From contig NZ_KI421511.1 of NCBI RefSeq assembly GCF_000473265.1, positions 7,537,314 through 7,601,313 on the forward strand: DNA of 64,000 bases, given 5' to 3'. Positions 35,308 through 64,000 of the stretch are shown here, one piece after another (position 1 is the first letter of the stretch; each line of letters begins with the position of its first letter). The notes beneath the pieces were generated by a model, which saw only the letters and a list, made by a program, of their open reading frames with translations, ran no database searches and was not told the origin of the DNA. The translations under genes and the position numbers were made by a program. The stretch is from Amycolatopsis thermoflava N1165 (lineage in GTDB: Bacteria; Actinomycetota; Actinomycetes; Mycobacteriales; Pseudonocardiaceae).

Positions 35308-35381
35308 GCCCTCGTAGCTCAGCCGGATAGAGCAAGAGCCTTCTAATCTCTAGGTCGCAGGTTCGAGTCCTGCCGGGGGCA
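35308..35381 (+). tRNA. tRNA-Arg (anticodon TCT)
   Basis: A 74-nt cloverleaf: acceptor arms GCCCTCG/CGGGGGC, D-arm GCTC...GAGC, anticodon loop CTTCTAA with TCT at 35342-35344, and T-arm GCAGG-TTCGAGT-CCTGC. The pair closing the anticodon loop is a C/T mismatch. CCA is not encoded. Its 3' end is followed 78 bp later by the phage integrase, so it is the likely attachment gene. Confidence 0.93.
35362..35381 (+). other. Probable attL core (tRNA 3' end)
   Basis: The T-arm and acceptor end of tRNA-Arg is the usual crossover site for tyrosine integrases, and the integrase gene lies directly downstream. The exact core cannot be fixed without the matching attR, which is not in the window. Confidence 0.6.
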
Positions 35382-35458
35382 CTACCTGGGGAAACGTGGT
35401 TGAGGGTACAGCCACAGCGCTACCAGAGCAAGAGAGTGACGGGGTAGCATCCCGCGTC

Positions 35459-36412
35459 ATGACCACCTCGACCGTCGCCGATGACGGGCTCACGCTCGAC
35501 GAGTTGCGCGAGCTGGTGCCCGACTTCGAGACCCACCTGAAGGCCGGGAAGAAGGCCGCCACGACGGTGGACCTCTACCTGCGCCACCTCCGCTACCTGT
35601 TCGCCTGGCTGGAGGACAACGCGCCCGACGAGCCGGTGGGCAAACCGGTGCTGGAGCGGTACTTCGTTGCCCTGCTGGAGCGAAACACGCGCCGGAACAA
35701 CCGCGAGGGCGAGCAGGTCAAGGCGACCTACGCCAATGCGCAGTACCGCAGCGCCCAGCAGTTCTGGGCATGGCTGGAGCGCGAAGAGGAAATCACGCGC
35801 AACCCGTTCGACAAGATGAGCCCGCCGAGCGCGCCGCTGCCCAAGATCCCGGTCCGGCCCGACGACGACGTGCGCGCGCTGCTGGCAACCTGCAAGGGGC
35901 GTACCTTCGTCGAGCTGCGCGACACCGCGATCATCCGACTGTTCGCCGACACTGGCGTGCGTGTGTCGGGAATGGCCGGTATCAACCTCGACGACGTCAA
36001 CTTTGACTACGACACCGTGGAAGTCGTGTTGAAGGGTGGCGGCACCCTCACGCTTCCGTTTGGCGCCAAGACCTCCGAAGCGCTGCGACGCTACATGCGT
36101 GCCCGGAGGAAGCGTCCGGGCGCGGAGCGACACACCGCGCTCTGGCTCGGCGACAAGGGGCCACTCACCACATCGGGCATCCGGCAGATGCTCGAACGCC
36201 GCGCCGAGCAGGCGGAGATCAAGAACTTCAATCCGCACCTCTTCCGTCACCTGTTCGCCCACACCTGGCTCGCCAACGGCGGCAACGAGGGCGATCTCAT
36301 GCGGCTGATGGGGTGGAAGTCCCGCGCCATGCTGCTGCGCTACGGCGAATCGGCCGCTGCCGAACGCGCCCGCAACTCGCATCGTCAGAAGGCCCTGGGC
36401 GACCGCTTCTAG
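35459..36412 (+). CDS. int: Phage tyrosine integrase
   Basis: A 317-residue site-specific recombinase. An N-terminal SAM-like core-binding domain spans 10-115. In the catalytic domain Arg168 (DTGVRVSGM), Lys about 192, the HLFRH box (His260, Arg263, His264), Trp286 in place of the second His, and the nucleophile Tyr295 (MLLRYGES) are all present, so it should be active. The ATG at 35459 is chosen; a GTG at 35396 would extend into the att region. It inserts the phage genome at the adjoining tRNA-Arg. Confidence 0.93.
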   Translation: MTTSTVADDGLTLDELRELVPDFETHLKAGKKAATTVDLYLRHLRYLFAWLEDNAPDEPVGKPVLERYFVALLERNTRRNNREGEQVKATYANAQYRSAQQFWAWLEREEEITRNPFDKMSPPSAPLPKIPVRPDDDVRALLATCKGRTFVELRDTAIIRLFADTGVRVSGMAGINLDDVNFDYDTVEVVLKGGGTLTLPFGAKTSEALRRYMRARRKRPGAERHTALWLGDKGPLTTSGIRQMLERRAEQAEIKNFNPHLFRHLFAHTWLANGGNEGDLMRLMGWKSRAMLLRYGESAAAERARNSHRQKALGDRF

Positions 36413-46716: not shown

Positions 46717-47016
46717 ATGACGCTTTCGGAGGTGCTGAGTAAGTCGCTCGGCGCGGTGACGTTGCGGCCGGAGGACGAGGCCGCGGCCGCGCTCGCGCGG
46801 CGCTACGCGGACGTGCTGGACAGCGAGCCGGACGCGCTGGTGAAGGTTGGGCCGCTGCTGCTGGCCTGCCTGGAATCGCTGGGCATGACGGCGAAGGGCC
46901 GGGCGGTGGTGCTCGGGAAGGGTGGACAACGTGGTGACGGCGGCGGCAAGCAGCGGTCGGCGCTCGACGACCTCCGGGCGAAGCGCGAAGCGCGTGCTCG
47001 GAAGAACGGAACCTAG
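46717..47016 (+). CDS. Terminase small subunit
   Basis: A 99-residue protein directly upstream of and overlapping terL. It is helical (EDEAAAALARRYADVLDSEPDALVKVGPLLLACLESLGM) with a basic C-terminus, fitting the small-terminase family of actinophages that recognise the packaging site. Assigned mainly by position. GAGAGGGG precedes its ATG. Confidence 0.75.
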   Translation: MTLSEVLSKSLGAVTLRPEDEAAAALARRYADVLDSEPDALVKVGPLLLACLESLGMTAKGRAVVLGKGGQRGDGGGKQRSALDDLRAKREARARKNGT

Positions 47017-48517
47017 GCTCTGGACGCCGCCGCTGCGGCGGCTCACCGCGCGGACGTCGTACGGGTTCGACGTCGTCGAGTTCGCCGACACGGTGCTGGG
47101 CATGCCGCTGGATCCGTGGGAGCGGTGGCTGGTGATCCACGCCGGCGAGCTGCTGCCGGACGGGCGGCCGCGGTTCCGCAAGGTGCTGGTGATCGTGGCG
47201 CGGCAGAACGGCAAGACGCACGTGCTCGTTGTGCTGTCGCTGTTCTGGCTGTTCGTCGAGGCCGTGCCGCTCGTGCTCGGTACCAGCACGAACCTGGGCT
47301 ACGCGAAGGAGTCCTGGCAAAAGGCCGTCGACCTCGCCGAGAGCCACGAGGAGCTGGCGCCGCTGGTCGCGACCGTGCGCAAGGCCGCTGGGGAAGAGGC
47401 GCTGGTGACCGCGGAAAAGGCCCGCTACCGCATCGCCGCGGCGAACCGGCGCGGCGGCCGGTCGCTGACGATCCACCGGCTGATCCTCGACGAGCTGCGC
47501 GAGCACGACTCCTGGGACGCGTGGAACGCTGCGTACAACGCGATGAACGCCGTGCCGTCGGCGCAGGCGTTCGCGATCACCAACCAGGGCGACGCGGGCG
47601 CGGTGGTGCTGGAGTCGTTGCGCTCGGCTGCGGTCGAGCGCGTGAACGGCGTCGAGCGGATCCGGCCGGACGGCGACCCGCAGCTGGGTCTGTTCGAGTG
47701 GAGTGCGCCGCCCGGGTCCGACGCCGACGACCCGCACGCGCTCGCGATGAGCAACCCGAACCTGGGCCGGCGGATCGACCTCGACTCGCTGCTGGCCGAC
47801 GCGCGGCGGGCCAAGGAGAACGGCGGCGACGAGCTGACGCAGTTCGAAACCGAGATCCTGTGCATGCGGGTTCCGAACCTGGATCCGGCGATCGACGGGG
47901 AGGCGTGGTCTGCCCCGTTCCCCGCCGGTTGCCTGGATCCCGGCGACCTCGCCGACGTGCGCTCGAACGTCGTGCTGACGTTCGACGTGTCGCTGGACCA
48001 GCAACACGCGGCGCTCATCGCGGCCGCGCGGACCCCGGACGGGCGGGTCCGCGTCGAGCCGGTGCAGGCGTGGACCGACCTCGCCGCGTTCCGCCGCGAG
48101 CTGCCCGCGCTCGTGCGCAAGATCAAGCCGCGCAAGCTCGGGTGGTTCCCGACCGGCCCGGCGGCCGCCGTGGCGGCCGAGCTGGTGAAGCGGAAGGGCT
48201 GGCCGCCGCCGGGGGTCGAGCTGGAGGAGATCCGTAGCGACGTGCCGGTGGTGTGCATGGGCTTCGCCGAGCAGGTCACCTCGCGACAGATCGCGCACTC
48301 CGGCGACCCGCTGCTGGACGCGCAGGTGGAGGCTGCCGAACGGCAGATGCGCGGCGACGCGTGGGTGTTCATCCGGCGCGGGGTGGGGCACGTCAATGCC
48401 GTGTACGCCGCGGCGGGCGCGGTGCACCTCGCGCGGACGCTGCCGGCCCCGGTCGGCAAGCCGCGGATCGTTCGGCGGAGGAAGCGAGGGGACGACGACA
48501 CGCAAGCCGCCGCCTGA
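46922..48517 (+). CDS. Terminase large subunit
   Basis: A 531-residue packaging motor. Walker A is VARQNGKT (92-99) and Walker B LILDEL (187-192), followed by the C-terminal RNase H-like nuclease starting at VVLTFDVSLD (near 350). It translocates DNA into proheads through the portal and cuts it. HK97-like TerL by sequence style. The start is uncertain: GTG 46922 overlaps terS by 95 bp, GTG 46994 by 23 bp; both give complete ATPase domains. Confidence 0.93.
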   Translation: MDNVVTAAASSGRRSTTSGRSAKRVLGRTEPRLWTPPLRRLTARTSYGFDVVEFADTVLGMPLDPWERWLVIHAGELLPDGRPRFRKVLVIVARQNGKTHVLVVLSLFWLFVEAVPLVLGTSTNLGYAKESWQKAVDLAESHEELAPLVATVRKAAGEEALVTAEKARYRIAAANRRGGRSLTIHRLILDELREHDSWDAWNAAYNAMNAVPSAQAFAITNQGDAGAVVLESLRSAAVERVNGVERIRPDGDPQLGLFEWSAPPGSDADDPHALAMSNPNLGRRIDLDSLLADARRAKENGGDELTQFETEILCMRVPNLDPAIDGEAWSAPFPAGCLDPGDLADVRSNVVLTFDVSLDQQHAALIAAARTPDGRVRVEPVQAWTDLAAFRRELPALVRKIKPRKLGWFPTGPAAAVAAELVKRKGWPPPGVELEEIRSDVPVVCMGFAEQVTSRQIAHSGDPLLDAQVEAAERQMRGDAWVFIRRGVGHVNAVYAAAGAVHLARTLPAPVGKPRIVRRRKRGDDDTQAAA

Positions 48518-48566: not shown

Positions 48567-51566
48567 GTGGGATGGCTGCGCACGCTGCTGAGATGGTCCG
48601 AGGCGCCCGGCTCGCCGAGCGCGCCCGAGCCGTCCGTAACGTTCTCCCACGACCTGCCCACCCCGGTAGACACGCTGGTCTCGGGGGCGTCGAAGTTCTC
48701 GAACACGCCGGTGACGCGGGCGCTCGCGCTGTCCGTCCCGGCCGTGCTGCGCGGCCGCAACCTGCTGTGCTCGATCGCCACGCTGCCGCTGGTCACCCGC
48801 GACAAGGACCGCATGCTGGTCCGGTCGTCCCTGCTGGAGCAGATCGACCCAAACGTGGCGAACGTGGTCACCCTGGCGCAGACGGTCGAAGACCTCGTGT
48901 TCGATGCGATCTCCTGGTGGCAGATCACCGACCGGCTCGCCGACGGGTTCCCGCGCTCGGCCGTGCACGTCGACGTCAACACGGTGTCGCTGAACCCGCC
49001 ACCGGGCGCACGCCAGCTCCGCACGCTGCCGTCCGGGCAGCAGCTTCCCGGCGGCGTGGTGTGGGTGAACGGCCAGCCGGTGCCCGGGCAGGACATGATC
49101 CGGTTCGACTCGCCGAACCCGCCCCTGCTCGGCGCTGCGGCGCGCGCGATCCGGCGCGCGATTCTGTTCGACCGGGCGTCGTCGATGTACGCCAGCGACC
49201 CGCGGCCACAGGACTACTTCACCCCGGCTGAGAACGCGGACCCGATCGAAGACGACGAGGTCGAAGAGATCCTGGACGACTGGGAGGCTGCGCGGCGCGA
49301 GCGCGCTACCGCCTACGTGCCGGCCGCCCTGAAGTACCAGACCGTCAACGCGCCGACGCCCGCCGAGCTGCAGCTGGTCGAGCTGAAGAAGGAAGCGACG
49401 ATCGAGATCGCGAACGCGCTCGGTCTGGACGCCGAAGACCTGCAGGTGTCGACGACGTCGCGCACGTACGCGAACGCGACCGACCGGCGGCGCGACCGGA
49501 TCAACGACGTGCTGGCCATGTACATGCGGGCCGTGACCGACCGGCTGTCCATGAACGACGTCACCCGCCGCGGTCAGAAGGTCGAGTTCAACCTCGACGA
49601 CTACCTGAAGGCCAACGCGACCGAGCGGTGGAACACCTACCAGACCGGGCTCACCACGCGCGTGCTCACCGTGCCGGAGGTGCGCGAGATGGAGGGGCTG
49701 CCCGCCATTCCGGTCGAGGTCTCTCCGCGCCAGCAACAGACACCCGCGGCTGATCAGGGCCAGCCGCAGACCACCGAGGAGGCCGGCATGACCCGGACCG
49801 CGACGAGCGCGCAGTTCGCCGAGGACAGCAACCACGACGTGATCGCGTTCGCGATCCCGGTCGCCGATGCGAACTTCCGCGTCGACGTCGAGAAGCGCAC
49901 CGTCTCCGGGCTGCTCGTGCCGTGGAACAAGGTCGCCCGCTCGGGGTGGGCGAAGTACCGGTTCTCCAAGGACAGTCTGTCCTGGTCGGACACCAGCCGG
50001 GTGAAGCTCAACCTCGACCACAACCGTTCCGAGGCCATCGGCTACGCCGTGAAGCTCGAATCCACGGACAAGGGCCTGGAGGGCACGTTCAAGATCGCCC
50101 GCGGCGAGGACGGCGACAAGGCGCTGATGAAGGCCGACGACAAGGTGCTGGACGGGTTCAGCATCGAGGCCGAGTTCAACGAGGACGGTTCCAGCTGGGG
50201 CGCCGACCCGAACGACGACATGGTGCGGCTGGTGTCCGACGCGCGGCTGGCCGGCGTGGCGCTGACCGCGTTCCCCGCATTCGACGACGCCCGGGTGTCG
50301 GGCGTCAAGGCATCACGGAAGGACAGCAGGATGACGGACAAGCCCGACGGCCCGCAGGGGCAGCAGGGAACCGCGGTCGCCGGGCCGGACGCGGCGACGA
50401 CTGCCGCGTTCACCGCCGCGGTCGAGGCGTTCACGAAGAACACCGGCACGCTCGCCGAGGCGATCTCGACGCTGGTCGAGGTCCAGCAGAACGGCAGCGA
50501 GGGACCCGCGTTCGTCGACCCGACCCGCCCCAAGGCGCGGTTCTCGGTCAACGAGGAGGCGCTGTACCGGTTCGACGGCTCCCGCGGCAAGCACGACTTC
50601 TCCACGGACATCATCTCGGGCGCGAAGGGCGACCACGAGGCGCTGAAGCGCGCGGAGCAGTGGATCCAGGAGAACTTCGCGTTCCCCGGCGGCGCCGACT
50701 TCGCGGTGAACCAGGCCGGCGTCAAGGCGCTGAACCCGGACATCAACCGGCCGGACCTGTACGTGGACCAGCTGGAGTACCCGACCCCGATCTGGGACGC
50801 GATCCGCAAGGGCACGATCGACGACAACACGCCGTTCGTGCTGCCCAAGTTCCAGTCGGCCTCGAACCTGGTGAACAACCACACCGAGGGCACCGAGCCG
50901 ACGCCGGGCGCGTTCAGCACGACCACACAGACCATCACGCCGTCGGCGGTGTCGGGCAAGGTCGAGGTGACTCGCGAGGCGTGGGACCAGGGCGGCAACC
51001 CGCAGCTGTCCACGATCCTGTGGCGGCAGATGGTGCGGGAGTACAACGAGGCGCTGGAGGAGGCTTCCGCGGCGCTGCTGGAGAGCCTCACCGTCACCAC
51101 CGTGACGCTCACCGCCGGTGCCGTCGACACCGCGCTGGCGCAGGAAGTGAAGGAGGCGCTCGCCGCGCTGCACTTCAGCCGTGGCGGGTTCCGGTTCCGC
51201 GACTTCAAGCTGGAGCAGGGGCTGTACACCGCGCTGGCCGCGGCCAAGGACGCCGACGGGCGGCCGCTGTTCCCCGTGCTCGGCGCGACCAACGCCGACG
51301 GCACGATGGGCCAGTTCTTCGGCTCCCTGGCGATCGGCGGGCTGGCCGGCGTCCCGGCGTGGGCGCTGCCGTTCGTCGACGGCGCCGCGAACGACTCCTA
51401 CCTGTTCAACCGGGAGGACGTCCACGGCTGGGCCTCGAACCCGCAGCGGCTCGACTTCCAGTACCGCGTCGCGTTCGTCGACGTCGCCGTGTGGGGCTAC
51501 AAGGCGCTGGCCTGCACCCGCACCGACGGCGTCCGCAAGATCACCTACGACAACGCCGCGGTCTGA
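48567..51566 (+). CDS. Portal-prohead protease-major capsid fusion ORF
   Basis: One uninterrupted 999-codon ORF encodes three proteins that are normally separate. Residues 1-about 400 are an HK97-type portal (IEIANALGLDAEDLQVSTTSRTYAN, LDDYLKANATERWNTYQTGLTTRVLTVPEVREMEGL). Residues 408-588 are the prohead protease, with His485 (NLDHN) and Ser532 (DGFSI) in place. Residues 589-999 are an HK97-fold major capsid protein. Both junctions have an in-frame ATG with a good ribosome site (49788 after GAGGAGG; 50331 after GGAAGGA), so separate proteins can also be made by internal initiation. No stop codon separates the parts. Confidence 0.93.
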   Translation: MGWLRTLLRWSEAPGSPSAPEPSVTFSHDLPTPVDTLVSGASKFSNTPVTRALALSVPAVLRGRNLLCSIATLPLVTRDKDRMLVRSSLLEQIDPNVANVVTLAQTVEDLVFDAISWWQITDRLADGFPRSAVHVDVNTVSLNPPPGARQLRTLPSGQQLPGGVVWVNGQPVPGQDMIRFDSPNPPLLGAAARAIRRAILFDRASSMYASDPRPQDYFTPAENADPIEDDEVEEILDDWEAARRERATAYVPAALKYQTVNAPTPAELQLVELKKEATIEIANALGLDAEDLQVSTTSRTYANATDRRRDRINDVLAMYMRAVTDRLSMNDVTRRGQKVEFNLDDYLKANATERWNTYQTGLTTRVLTVPEVREMEGLPAIPVEVSPRQQQTPAADQGQPQTTEEAGMTRTATSAQFAEDSNHDVIAFAIPVADANFRVDVEKRTVSGLLVPWNKVARSGWAKYRFSKDSLSWSDTSRVKLNLDHNRSEAIGYAVKLESTDKGLEGTFKIARGEDGDKALMKADDKVLDGFSIEAEFNEDGSSWGADPNDDMVRLVSDARLAGVALTAFPAFDDARVSGVKASRKDSRMTDKPDGPQGQQGTAVAGPDAATTAAFTAAVEAFTKNTGTLAEAISTLVEVQQNGSEGPAFVDPTRPKARFSVNEEALYRFDGSRGKHDFSTDIISGAKGDHEALKRAEQWIQENFAFPGGADFAVNQAGVKALNPDINRPDLYVDQLEYPTPIWDAIRKGTIDDNTPFVLPKFQSASNLVNNHTEGTEPTPGAFSTTTQTITPSAVSGKVEVTREAWDQGGNPQLSTILWRQMVREYNEALEEASAALLESLTVTTVTLTAGAVDTALAQEVKEALAALHFSRGGFRFRDFKLEQGLYTALAAAKDADGRPLFPVLGATNADGTMGQFFGSLAIGGLAGVPAWALPFVDGAANDSYLFNREDVHGWASNPQRLDFQYRVAFVDVAVWGYKALACTRTDGVRKITYDNAAV
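49776..49790 (+). promoter_or_regulatory. Internal ribosome site and start for the prohead protease
   Basis: GAGGAGG (49776-49782) stands 5 bp before an in-frame ATG at 49788, which is residue 408 of the fusion ORF and the first residue expected of the protease domain. It would allow free protease to be made. Confidence 0.6.
50317..50333 (+). promoter_or_regulatory. Internal ribosome site and start for the major capsid protein
   Basis: GGAAGGA (50317-50323) stands 7 bp before an in-frame ATG at 50331, residue 589 of the fusion ORF, at the protease/capsid border. Capsid protein is needed in hundreds of copies, so independent initiation here would explain the stoichiometry. Confidence 0.6.
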
Positions 51567-51942: not shown

Positions 51943-52542
51943 ATGGCCTGGCAGCCTGACTATGCCAGCGCGGCCGAGCTGGCCGAGTACGTGCGTGGCG
52001 ACGAGACGGTGGACGGCGACGAGCTGGCGGTGGCCGTCTCCGCCGCCTCGCGCGCAATCGACGAGTTCACCCACCGGCAGTTCGGGCAGACCGACGTCGA
52101 GCAGCGGTTCTACACCGCGCGCTGGTCCGCGTACCGCGACACCTGGCTGGTGCGGATCGACGACGTCATGGTGGTCCCGACCGAGGTCGCCACCGACCCC
52201 GGAGACGACACCTGGACGACGGTCGGCAACCCGCGGATGCTGCCGCGCAACGCGGCGGCCGAGGGCCGGCCGTGGACGGAACTCCAGTTGCCGAGCACGA
52301 TCGGGAGCATCGCCGTCGACGGCGTACGCGTCACCGCTCGGTTCGGATGGACCGAAGTACCCGACACCATCAAGCAGGCGACGCTGCTGCAGGCGTCGCG
52401 CCTGTTCGCACGCCGGGACTCGCCGTTCGGCGTGGCCGGATCGCCGGACATCGGGTCCGAGCTGCGGCTACTCGCCAAGCTCGACCCGGATGTTCAGGTG
52501 ATGGTGGCCAACTACTGTCGCGACCGGAAGCGGGTCGGGTGA
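51943..52542 (+). CDS. Head-tail connector protein
   Basis: A 199-residue protein resembling the HK97 gp6/phi-like connector group: an N-terminal helical region (SAAELAEYVRG...AASRAIDEFTHRQFG), a beta middle, and FGWTEVPDTIKQATLLQASRLFARRDSPFGVAG, a motif common to such connectors. It forms the ring below the portal. AAGGAGGTGAGCGGAG before the ATG is a strong ribosome site, in keeping with high late expression. Confidence 0.82.
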   Translation: MAWQPDYASAAELAEYVRGDETVDGDELAVAVSAASRAIDEFTHRQFGQTDVEQRFYTARWSAYRDTWLVRIDDVMVVPTEVATDPGDDTWTTVGNPRMLPRNAAAEGRPWTELQLPSTIGSIAVDGVRVTARFGWTEVPDTIKQATLLQASRLFARRDSPFGVAGSPDIGSELRLLAKLDPDVQVMVANYCRDRKRVG

Positions 52543-53876: not shown

Positions 53877-54299
53877 GTGGCGGACGAGCTGATCCGGGTC
53901 GAGGGCTGGCGGGAGCTGTCCCGCTCGCTCCGGCGCGCCAACTCCGAGCTGCCCAAGGGGCTGCGGCTCGCGGCGAACGAGGCCGCGCAGCTCGTCGTCA
54001 ACGACGCCCGCCCGAAGGTGCCGGTCGGTCCGGGCAAGGGCGGGCACGCCGCCTCCTCGATCAAGGCCGCCTCCACCCGCACCGCGGCTCGGGTGCAGGG
54101 CGGCGGGTCGAAGTTCCCCTACTACCCCTGGCTGGACTTCGGCGGGCGCGTCGGGCCGAACAAGAGCGTCCGGCGGCCGTTCATGAAGACCGGCCGCTAC
54201 CTGTGGAAGTCCTACGCCGACCAGAAGACCAAGGTCGCTGAATCCCTCGACACCGCGCTGCGCCGGGTGATCGAGGAAGCCGGAATCGGGGTGGAGTGA
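53877..54299 (+). CDS. HK97 gp10-like tail/neck protein
   Basis: A 140-residue protein of the HK97-gp10 family. LRRANSELPKGLRLAANEAAQLVVNDARPKVPVGPGKGGHAASSIKAA and a late RPFMKTGRYLWKSYADQK are characteristic. This head-tail joining protein is usually encoded before the tail tube gene; here it follows the chaperones, immediately before the tape measure gene, which is an unusual order. Confidence 0.78.
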   Translation: MADELIRVEGWRELSRSLRRANSELPKGLRLAANEAAQLVVNDARPKVPVGPGKGGHAASSIKAASTRTAARVQGGGSKFPYYPWLDFGGRVGPNKSVRRPFMKTGRYLWKSYADQKTKVAESLDTALRRVIEEAGIGVE

Positions 54300-56176
54300 T
54301 GGCCGGGCTCGGACCCACCGTCAAGCTCGTCTTCGCCGGCGACGCCACGCAGCTGGACAAGACCATGAAGGACGTCGGCGACTCCGGCGACCGCATGGTG
54401 AAGGCGTTCAGCGCCAAGAGCGCCGGGCTCGCGCTCGCCGGCGGCATGGCCGCAACCGGGCTCGTCGACGCGTTCCAGCAGAACCTCGACATCGGCTCGG
54501 CGAACGCCAAGCTCGAAGCCCAGCTCGGCGCGGGCAGCGAGTTGGCCGCGGCAGCTGGGGAGATCGCCGGCAACCTCTACGCCGACGCCTACGGCGACAG
54601 CCTGGCGACGGTGAACGACGCGGTGAAGACCGTGCTGCAGTCCGGGGCGCTGATGGAGGACGCCTCGAACGAGCAGATCCAGGCGATCACCGCCAACGCC
54701 ATGTCGCTGTCGGACGCGTTCGGGGTCGACGTGCAGTCGTCGATGAACGCCGTCGCCCAGCTGATGCGCACCGGGCTCGCGCCGAGCGCCGAGGCCGCGC
54801 TGGACGTGATCACCCGCGGGTTTCAGCAGGGCGTCGACAAGGGCGGCGACTTCCTCGACACGCTCAACGAGTACTCCACGCAGTTCCGCAAGCTCGGGCT
54901 GGACGCCACGTCCGCCACGGGCCTGATGTCGCAGGGGCTGCAGGCCGGCGCCCGGGATGCTGATGTCGTCGCGGACGCGCTGAAGGAGTTCTCCATTCGC
55001 GCCGTCGACGGCAGCAAGACCACCGCCGACGGGTTCAAGATGCTGGGGCTCAACGCCGACCAGATGGCCTCGCAGATCGCGCAAGGCGGGCAAACCGCGT
55101 CGGCCGGGCTCGACGTGGTGCTGGACCGGCTGCGGGACATCAAGGACCCGGTGCTGCAGTCGCAAGCGGCGGTGGCACTGTTCGGCACCCAAGCCGAAGA
55201 CCTGGGGGCGGCGCTGTACGCGCTGGACCCCACTACGGCGGTAGCCGCGCTGGGCAACGTCGACGGCGCGGCGGCGGTGGTGAACGAGACGCTGTCCGAC
55301 ACCGCGCAGAACAAGATCACCGCGCTGCAGCGCGGGTTTCAGGACTGGACCAACTCGCTGGTGACCACGAACGGGCCGCTCGGCGACCTCGCTGCCGGGG
55401 TGATGGCCTTCGGCCAGCCCGCGCTCACGATGCTGTCGAGCATCGGCGTGATCGCGCTCGCGTTCCAGGGCTTCGGCATGACCCTGCTCACCACCGTCAT
55501 CCCGGCGGTGTGGTCCTTCACCACGGCGTTGCTCGCGAACCCGATCACGTGGATCGTGCTCGGCGTGATCGCGCTCATCGCGGCGATAGTGCTGCTGATC
55601 ACCCACTTCGACCAGGTCAAGGCCGTGGCGACCTCGGTGATCTCGTGGATCGGCGACCGGTTCGAGTGGGTGAAGAACCTCGTGGGCGGGGTCGCAGGCT
55701 GGATCCGCGACCGGTTCGTGGAGGGGTTCAACTGGGTGCGCAACGTCGCCGGTGGCGTGTTCGACTGGTTCGGCTCGCTGCCGGGCCGCATCGGCGGCGT
55801 GTTCTCCACCATCGGCGAGGGCATCAAGAACGCCTTCCGCTCGGCGTTCAACTTCGTGGCCGACATCTGGAACAACACCGTCGGCCGGATCTCGATCACC
55901 ATTCCGTCGTGGGTGCCGGTGATCGGCGGCAACTCGTTCTCCGCGCCGAAGATCCCGAAGTTCCACACCGGCGGCGTCGTGCCCGGTGCGCCCGGCCAGG
56001 AGGTGCTCGCGCTGCTGCAGGCCGGGGAGACCGTCATCCCCGCGAACGCCTCGGGCGGCGCGGGCGCCATCGTGATCAAGGGCGACGGCTCGCCGATCGC
56101 GGAGGTGCTGATCGAGGTGCTGTCCAAGGCCATTCGCGGGCAGGGCGGCAACGTCCAGGAGGTGCTCGGCGGATGA
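54299..56176 (+). CDS. Tape measure protein
   Basis: A 625-residue tail length protein. It has a helical N-terminal region, a hydrophobic double segment at about 370-440 (IGVIALAFQGFGMTLLTTVIPAVWSF, NPITWIVLGVIALIAAIVLLITHF), and a C-terminal FHTGGVVPGAPGQEVLALLQAGETVIP typical of phage tape measures. At about 1.5 angstrom per residue it predicts a tail of some 90 nm. ATG 54299 overlaps the previous stop; GTG 54296 is equally possible. It is short for a siphophage. Confidence 0.93.
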   Translation: MAGLGPTVKLVFAGDATQLDKTMKDVGDSGDRMVKAFSAKSAGLALAGGMAATGLVDAFQQNLDIGSANAKLEAQLGAGSELAAAAGEIAGNLYADAYGDSLATVNDAVKTVLQSGALMEDASNEQIQAITANAMSLSDAFGVDVQSSMNAVAQLMRTGLAPSAEAALDVITRGFQQGVDKGGDFLDTLNEYSTQFRKLGLDATSATGLMSQGLQAGARDADVVADALKEFSIRAVDGSKTTADGFKMLGLNADQMASQIAQGGQTASAGLDVVLDRLRDIKDPVLQSQAAVALFGTQAEDLGAALYALDPTTAVAALGNVDGAAAVVNETLSDTAQNKITALQRGFQDWTNSLVTTNGPLGDLAAGVMAFGQPALTMLSSIGVIALAFQGFGMTLLTTVIPAVWSFTTALLANPITWIVLGVIALIAAIVLLITHFDQVKAVATSVISWIGDRFEWVKNLVGGVAGWIRDRFVEGFNWVRNVAGGVFDWFGSLPGRIGGVFSTIGEGIKNAFRSAFNFVADIWNNTVGRISITIPSWVPVIGGNSFSAPKIPKFHTGGVVPGAPGQEVLALLQAGETVIPANASGGAGAIVIKGDGSPIAEVLIEVLSKAIRGQGGNVQEVLGG

Positions 56177-63205: not shown

Positions 63206-63334
63206 ATGGTCGACCGATCCAGCGGCGTAGCCGTACACCGGCAGATCGCGACCGCCCTGCGGGAGAAGATCAGCGCGGGCGAGTTCGCGCCCGGGGACAA
63301 GCTGCCCAGCGAGAATCAGCTCATTGAGACCTAG
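63206..63334 (+). pseudogene. GntR family regulator truncated by an insertion sequence
   Basis: The reading frame starts as a normal GntR winged helix (VAVHRQIATALREKISAGEFAPGDKLPSENQLIE) but stops after 42 residues at an IS5-family end. The recognition helix and the rest are missing, so the repressor is not functional. The rest of the gene should lie beyond the IS, outside the window. Confidence 0.85.
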
Positions 63335-64000
63335 ACCGTGTCTGACAATGTCTTTGTCCAGGTGATGACGTCGTGGATGAGGATGGCGGCGCGGTAGAGC
63401 GTGGCCAACTTGTCGTAGCGGGTGGCGATGCCGCGCCATTGTTTGAGCTGGTTGAAGCTGCGTTCGATGACGTTGCGTCCGCGGTAGTCGACCTCGTTGA
63501 AGGCGGGTGGTCGTCCGCCGCGGGAACCGCGGCGTTTGCGGTGTCCTGCTTGGTCGGCCGGTTCGGGGATGACCGCCTGGATTCCCCGCCTGCGTAGGTG
63601 GTTGCGGATGGCGCGGGAGGAGTAGGCCTTGTCTGCGCGCACCCGGTTGGGGCGGGTCCGTGCTCGCCCGCCGCCCAAGCGGGGCACCTGCAGGTGGGCC
63701 ATCAGCGGTTCGAACATCGGTGAGTCCCCGGCCTGGCCTGGTGTCAGCAGGGTGACCAGTCCCCGCCCGTTCCCGTCGACGACACGGTGAATCTTGGTAG
63801 TCCAGCCGCCGCGGGAGCGGCCGATGGCGTGGTCAGGCGGCTCGATCCCGGGTTTCGTGTAGTTCGATCCAGCCCCCTGTGTGGCGGGTGATGGTCGTGG
63901 CGTGCTGATGCGCCCGCACGATGCTGGAGTCGACCGAGACCGACCAGTCGATCAACCCAGCCGCGTCCGCGAAGGCCTGGAGCCGCTGCAGCACCACATC
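63328..64000 (-). mobile_element. IS5-family insertion sequence (partial)
   Basis: The element starts near 63328-63335, right at the point where the gntR frame breaks, and runs beyond the window. It carries a minus-strand transposase in two frames. CCTAGA at the junction fits a CTAG-type target often used by this family, but the exact inverted repeat cannot be fixed without the other end. Confidence 0.85.
63331..64000 (-). CDS. IS5-family transposase in two frames (partial)
   Basis: From the right edge the first frame reads DWSVSVDSSIVRAHQHATT..., giving the first catalytic Asp, and ends near 63830. The second frame carries TKIHRVVDGNGRGLVTLLTPGQAGDSPMFEPLM (second Asp) and VIERSFNQLKQWRGIATRYDK (catalytic Glu with the K/R of the DDE signature), and ends at 63331. 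The two frames overlap around 63840-63870, as in IS5/IS427-group elements that use a programmed frameshift. The N-terminus is outside the window. Confidence 0.85.

Follow-up and report, generated by a model that had tools for sequence, protein, structure and literature searches.

A prophage of Amycolatopsis thermoflava N1165 carries its portal, prohead protease and major capsid protein in one uninterrupted open reading frame, and a ribosome site for the capsid protein is embedded at the protease-capsid border of that frame. This internal capsid start is the best supported new point of the present analysis, and its conservation strongly indicates that a free capsid protein is made through internal initiation. 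The portal and the major capsid protein differ greatly in copy number, and their fusion looks impossible without separate control of translation and processing; that about 100 lineages have retained it, along with an internal start under selection, suggests a design that works. Our best reading, which we hold to be probable, is that the gene is a maintained fusion in a lineage of actinobacterial siphophages and gives rise to nested products that have a common capsid C-terminus and are separated by a built-in protease. Nested initiation with a shared C-terminus would explain why the fusion is conserved and how the copy-number problem is solved.

The window, i.e. the whole stretch of 64,000 nucleotides that was analysed, lies in a genome of 8.69 Mb and holds the following features.

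35308-35382: tRNA-Arg, directly before the integrase gene
35396-36412: integrase (tyrosine-type), adjoining tRNA-Arg
46922-48517, plus strand: terminase large subunit (PHROG_9, E=7e-64), directly upstream of the fused ORF
48567-51566, plus strand: fused portal-protease-capsid ORF, GTG start, 999 aa, about 108.7 kDa
48771-49697, plus strand: HK97-family portal domain, residues 69-377 (Pfam PF04860, E=6e-24; Foldseek 3kdr, 8cez)
49716-49868, plus strand: portal-protease linker, residues 384-434, low confidence (AlphaFold2 pLDDT <50 for 384-399 and 401-434)
49776-49782, plus strand: Shine-Dalgarno (SD) sequence GAGGAGG, 5 nt before ATG 49788, duplex energy -11.3
49788-49790, plus strand: internal ATG, candidate start of a protease-capsid product (592 aa, 63.8 kDa)
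49896-50312, plus strand: S78 prohead protease domain, residues 444-582 (Pfam PF04586, E=8e-9)
50019-50021 and 50160-50162, plus strand: protease catalytic codons His485 and Ser532, from conservation in 39 relatives
50289-50387, plus strand: protease-capsid linker, residues 575-607, low confidence (AlphaFold2 pLDDT <50)
50317-50323, plus strand: Shine-Dalgarno sequence GGAAGGA, 7 nt before ATG 50331
50331-50333, plus strand: internal ATG, start of the free capsid protein (predicted 411 aa, 44.1 kDa)
50391-50492, plus strand: putative delta (scaffold-like) region of helical structure, residues 609-642 (in the 411-aa model, helices 21-36 and 41-54)
50721-51563, plus strand: HK97-fold major capsid domain, about residues 719-999 (Foldseek HK97 gp5 2fs3/1ohg, E 4e-11 to 9e-11)
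51943-52542, plus strand: head-tail adaptor (PHROG_442, E=3e-15), downstream of the fused ORF
54296-56176: tape measure

With a tail terminator, a major tail protein and connectors as further neighbours of the fused ORF, the region has the appearance of an integrated siphophage. The tRNA-Arg/integrase pair at 35308-36412 is likely the attachment side of the prophage; a search for direct repeats of at least 14 nt that could form an att site near tRNA-Arg gave none at 56-64 kb of the window, and a DDE transposase fragment lies at 63331-63717, close to where the prophage region ends on the other side.

The initial annotation had described 999 stop-free codons carrying three HK97-type head proteins in order, and the ORF (within a stop-to-stop frame of 1013 codons), Pfam, PHROG and fold matches agree on an HK97-type portal followed by an S78 protease and an HK97-fold capsid. 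The portal domain scores 85 bits against PF04860, above the Pfam cutoff of 39, and 45 bits against TIGR01537, below the cutoff of 112, and its fold matches the portal 3kdr (Foldseek E=2e-17) and the HK97 portal 8cez (E=1e-12). The protease domain reaches 36 bits against PF04586 (cutoff 21), and the active-site residues named in the initial annotation bear comparison with 39 relatives, among which Ser532 is invariant and His485 nearly invariant (at least 90%). A match to PHROG_2263 'major head protein' spans residues 438-997 (E=6e-44). The Pfam search gave no separate match for the capsid part of the window protein; its HK97 fold is confirmed by modelling, the 411-residue model from ATG 50331 (pLDDT 82.9) matching HK97 gp5 and other HK97-fold capsids (Foldseek E about 1e-11), and by analogy with HK97 residues 609-642 would play the part of the delta region. 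NF045541, a curated model of the protease/capsid fusion, matches 18 of the 39 relatives, and the window protein has no match to it at E 0.001. The full-length AlphaFold2 model (pLDDT 74, pTM 0.39, at which domain placement is not reliable) yields portal and capsid fold matches and has very low confidence at both domain borders; the linkers there are predicted to be flexible and probably disordered.

How widely is this arrangement shared? The homologue search that had been proposed as a check on the fusion returned 139 fused loci, 98 of them distinct, with identities down to about 37%, and the stops are absent in distant homologues too. The relatives are mostly metagenomic contigs. Among those examined from a three-row profile search (80 viral contigs kept from 210 relatives), all 83 loci with all three domains carry them as one ORF. 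A portal-only profile search, run against whole-ORF ranking bias and giving 80 loci, many on contigs that overlap the first set, provided 61 newly classified loci with all domains: 55 fused, five with a separate portal, which keep protease and capsid fused, and one with a separate capsid. The last (L126) has a deletion at the protease end, where at L126:3400-3560 the C-terminal segment of the protease is absent and the frame changed, with the SD and ATG for the capsid intact just after; it is a variant or an assembly error. Other Pseudonocardiaceae also carry fused prophages (G047, G324, G301, G313), those of G047 (L008/L015) with about 80 additional residues between portal and protease, and a 99% identical relative of the window genome comes from Amycolatopsis deserti. 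A 'Streptomyces acidicola' contig of 1.4x coverage (L003), also 99% identical to the ORF, is probably contamination. Among cultured phage and plasmid records none covers 80% of the fused ORF, and the cultured kin have a separate portal gene and a fused protease-capsid gene.

In a portal tree built by a quick method, all fused rows fall into one clade of 105 rows with four re-split rows inside (SH-aLRT 94), the fusion state changes 4 times as against 14.4 when shuffled, and the cultured two-gene phages lie outside. Most simply, these data suggest, the portal fusion arose once and was then re-split a few times within one subclade. The portal-protease linkers of the 98 distinct fused ORFs hold no stop in 4559 in-frame codons, a zero that is partly by construction since fused loci were selected, compared with 95 and 106 stops in the other two frames. 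Judged from these comparisons, conservation of the open frame is far beyond chance, and the fusion is old and has been maintained across about 100 lineages. The missing stops and surviving starts of the initial annotation are real, but to describe them as stops lost at this locus was too local, and the protease-capsid half is an already known actinophage arrangement.

Both in-frame ATGs are placed as had been claimed, the one at 49788 behind GAGGAGG with a 5-nt spacer and the one at 50331 behind AAGGA with a 7-nt spacer. Their conservation differs, only the second being kept family-wide. At the protease-capsid border, a ribosome site with ATG or GTG is kept in about 96 of the 98 distinct fused ORFs by the duplex cut-off; a convincing internal capsid start is lacking in L092, and that of L046 is weaker. 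The protein sequence at this border varies (RKDSRM, SLTGGTM, KEGTATM, REVPV), while the SD core and ATG/GTG recur, with a 4-mer core in all 80 aligned border cases and before 16% of other in-frame ATG/GTG codons. Where the start encodes valine, the codon is GTG in 16 of 16 cases (p=3e-6). Of the 115 glycine codons in the SD window, 91 (79%) are GGA, compared with 6% in control windows (p about 5e-77), the controls being matched best-of-33 windows in which the best SD start was picked in the same way; the arginine codons AGG/AGA are likewise enriched. The border SD is also stronger than in synonymous shuffles (Wilcoxon p=3e-8), though pooled codon tests were used because per-locus shuffles are weak where the SD itself has shaped the amino acids. 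By these codon patterns, the nucleotides at the capsid border are under selection as a ribosome site, and a strong internal capsid start offers a plausible answer to the portal/capsid stoichiometry puzzle.

The portal-protease border is less uniform. In the window's clade, nine of ten members have a site comparable to GAGGAGG/ATG 49788 (Fisher p=1e-6), and this start is conserved within that clade only; across the 98 distinct ORFs the border holds a strong site in 40, a weak one in 20, an NTG codon lacking an SD in 33 and no NTG in 5. No usable protease start thus lies between portal and protease in 38 of the 98, so that their protease must come from a chain begun in the portal, unless a start lies inside the portal domain, lacks an SD, is leaderless or is coupled. 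The main GTG at 48567 has no SD (duplex energy +0.8), consistent with low output. The initial annotation had left it open whether a polyprotein, internal initiation or a combination of the two is at work; the combination is favoured here, with the family-wide start at 50331 speaking for internal initiation and the start at 49788 being confined to one clade.

It could be argued that the genes are functionally separate, i.e. that portal, protease and capsid are each made mainly from a start of their own and the long product, a consequence of missing stops, matters little. The conserved capsid start, the strong SD and ATG at the portal-protease border of the window's clade and the viable-looking re-split relatives would all fit. 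However, the 38 relatives that have no usable protease start, together with a frame that has stayed open throughout a deep clade while the other frames carry stops, make this account unlikely. The opposite extreme, a pure polyprotein in which only the 999-aa chain is made and cut to equimolar portal, protease and capsid, with surplus portal and protease discarded, we find quite improbable: the continuous frame of all fused members, the retained active-site residues, the flexible linkers and the case of L092 agree with it, but it leaves the stoichiometry of 12 to many unsolved and gives no reason for the selection seen on SD and start codon at the capsid border. An artefact or a decayed prophage, arising by sequencing error or stop loss in one degenerate element, is hardly credible given that the same frame recurs in more than 100 relatives and in an independent assembly of 99% identity (L002), that no missed stop lies between the domains in L002, and that the neighbourhood holds an integrase, terminase, connectors, tail genes and a tape measure. 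Sequencing error and recent stop loss were rejected as origins of the frame, which is shared with L002 and with relatives to about 37% identity.

In the nested-product reading, a single mRNA would carry nested starts in one frame, with the capsid C-terminus common to all products. The weak GTG 48567 would yield the 999-aa portal-protease-capsid protein at a low level, ATG 49788 would in the window's clade probably add the 592-aa protease-capsid protein, and most of the 411-aa capsid protein would be made from ATG 50331, whose ribosome site is conserved. Fused chains and free capsid protein would co-assemble into a procapsid, in which the S78 protease would then cleave the delta region as well as the flexible linkers, so that the portal ring would be released and the capsid subunits would mature. 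We infer the relative amounts and the co-assembly, as well as the cleavage, the last because the active site is conserved and the borders are flexible.

The portal of HK97 is regarded as the nucleus of assembly, with its contact to the shell mediated by the scaffold domain (PMC10275583). A speculative and rather doubtful extension is that the scarce portal-protease-capsid chain acts as an assembly seed, its capsid domain anchoring portal and protease at one vertex before the protease cuts the tethers. If true, covalent tethering would enforce the incorporation of portal and protease, and the one-portal-per-capsid problem would be solved by the gene's own design. In any case, a compact natural system makes this long-standing question testable.

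The HK97 head module (gp3 portal, gp4 protease, gp5 capsid) has the same three families in the same order, with a delta scaffold at the capsid N-terminus, but consists of three genes as against one ORF in the window. In lambda C/Nu3, an in-frame internal start yields a shorter protein with the same C-terminus, and the large product carries the protease. The window ORF likewise has an internal SD and start in frame and a C-terminus that its products would share; the shared part is scaffold in lambda and capsid here, the lambda pair has no portal, and no homology is claimed.

Closer at hand, the protease-scaffold-capsid fusion is a documented feature of small actinophages (PMC5513430, PMC7302621). 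Their gene (clusters AN, AM, AU, EE, EL, RRH1; NF045541) likewise holds protease and capsid in the same order, within the same small siphophage neighbourhood, but the portal is a separate gene there; with its portal in the same ORF, the window gene is a variant of this fusion and not a plain member. Portal-MuF fusions of Arthrobacter/Microbacterium phages (cluster AK, PMC5513430; clusters EA and EB, PMC7302621) also join the portal to a downstream head gene, although the partner is MuF and not protease plus capsid. The thaumarchaeal proviruses Nvie-Pro1 and NCAV2-Pro1 have a protease domain fused to the capsid (PMC6563490), as in the window, with no portal fusion reported there. We found no description of a portal-protease-capsid fusion in the open literature (subscription papers were outside the scope), and as far as that literature shows, what is new here is the portal added to the known protease-capsid fusion.

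The re-split relatives (L170, L178, L182, L183, L185), in which protease and capsid are still fused, indicate that fusion of the portal is no absolute requirement. In them the end of the portal gene overlaps or adjoins the beginning of the protease, as in cultured relatives, where an ATGA overlap joins the portal to the next gene in Kels, Decurro and Azizam; the fusion may thus be a step beyond translational coupling.

Where such genes are annotated simply as 'portal' or 'major capsid', the nested products will be overlooked. Several of the cultured fusions (among L112, L113, L115, L116, L117 and L118) have an in-frame SD and ATG at the protease-capsid border, at residue 160 in Decurro, 166 in Azizam, 274 in RRH1 and 226 in Schiebs, and weaker in Kels and Adaia, which suggests that several annotated cultured protease-capsid fusions also hold an unannotated internal capsid start.
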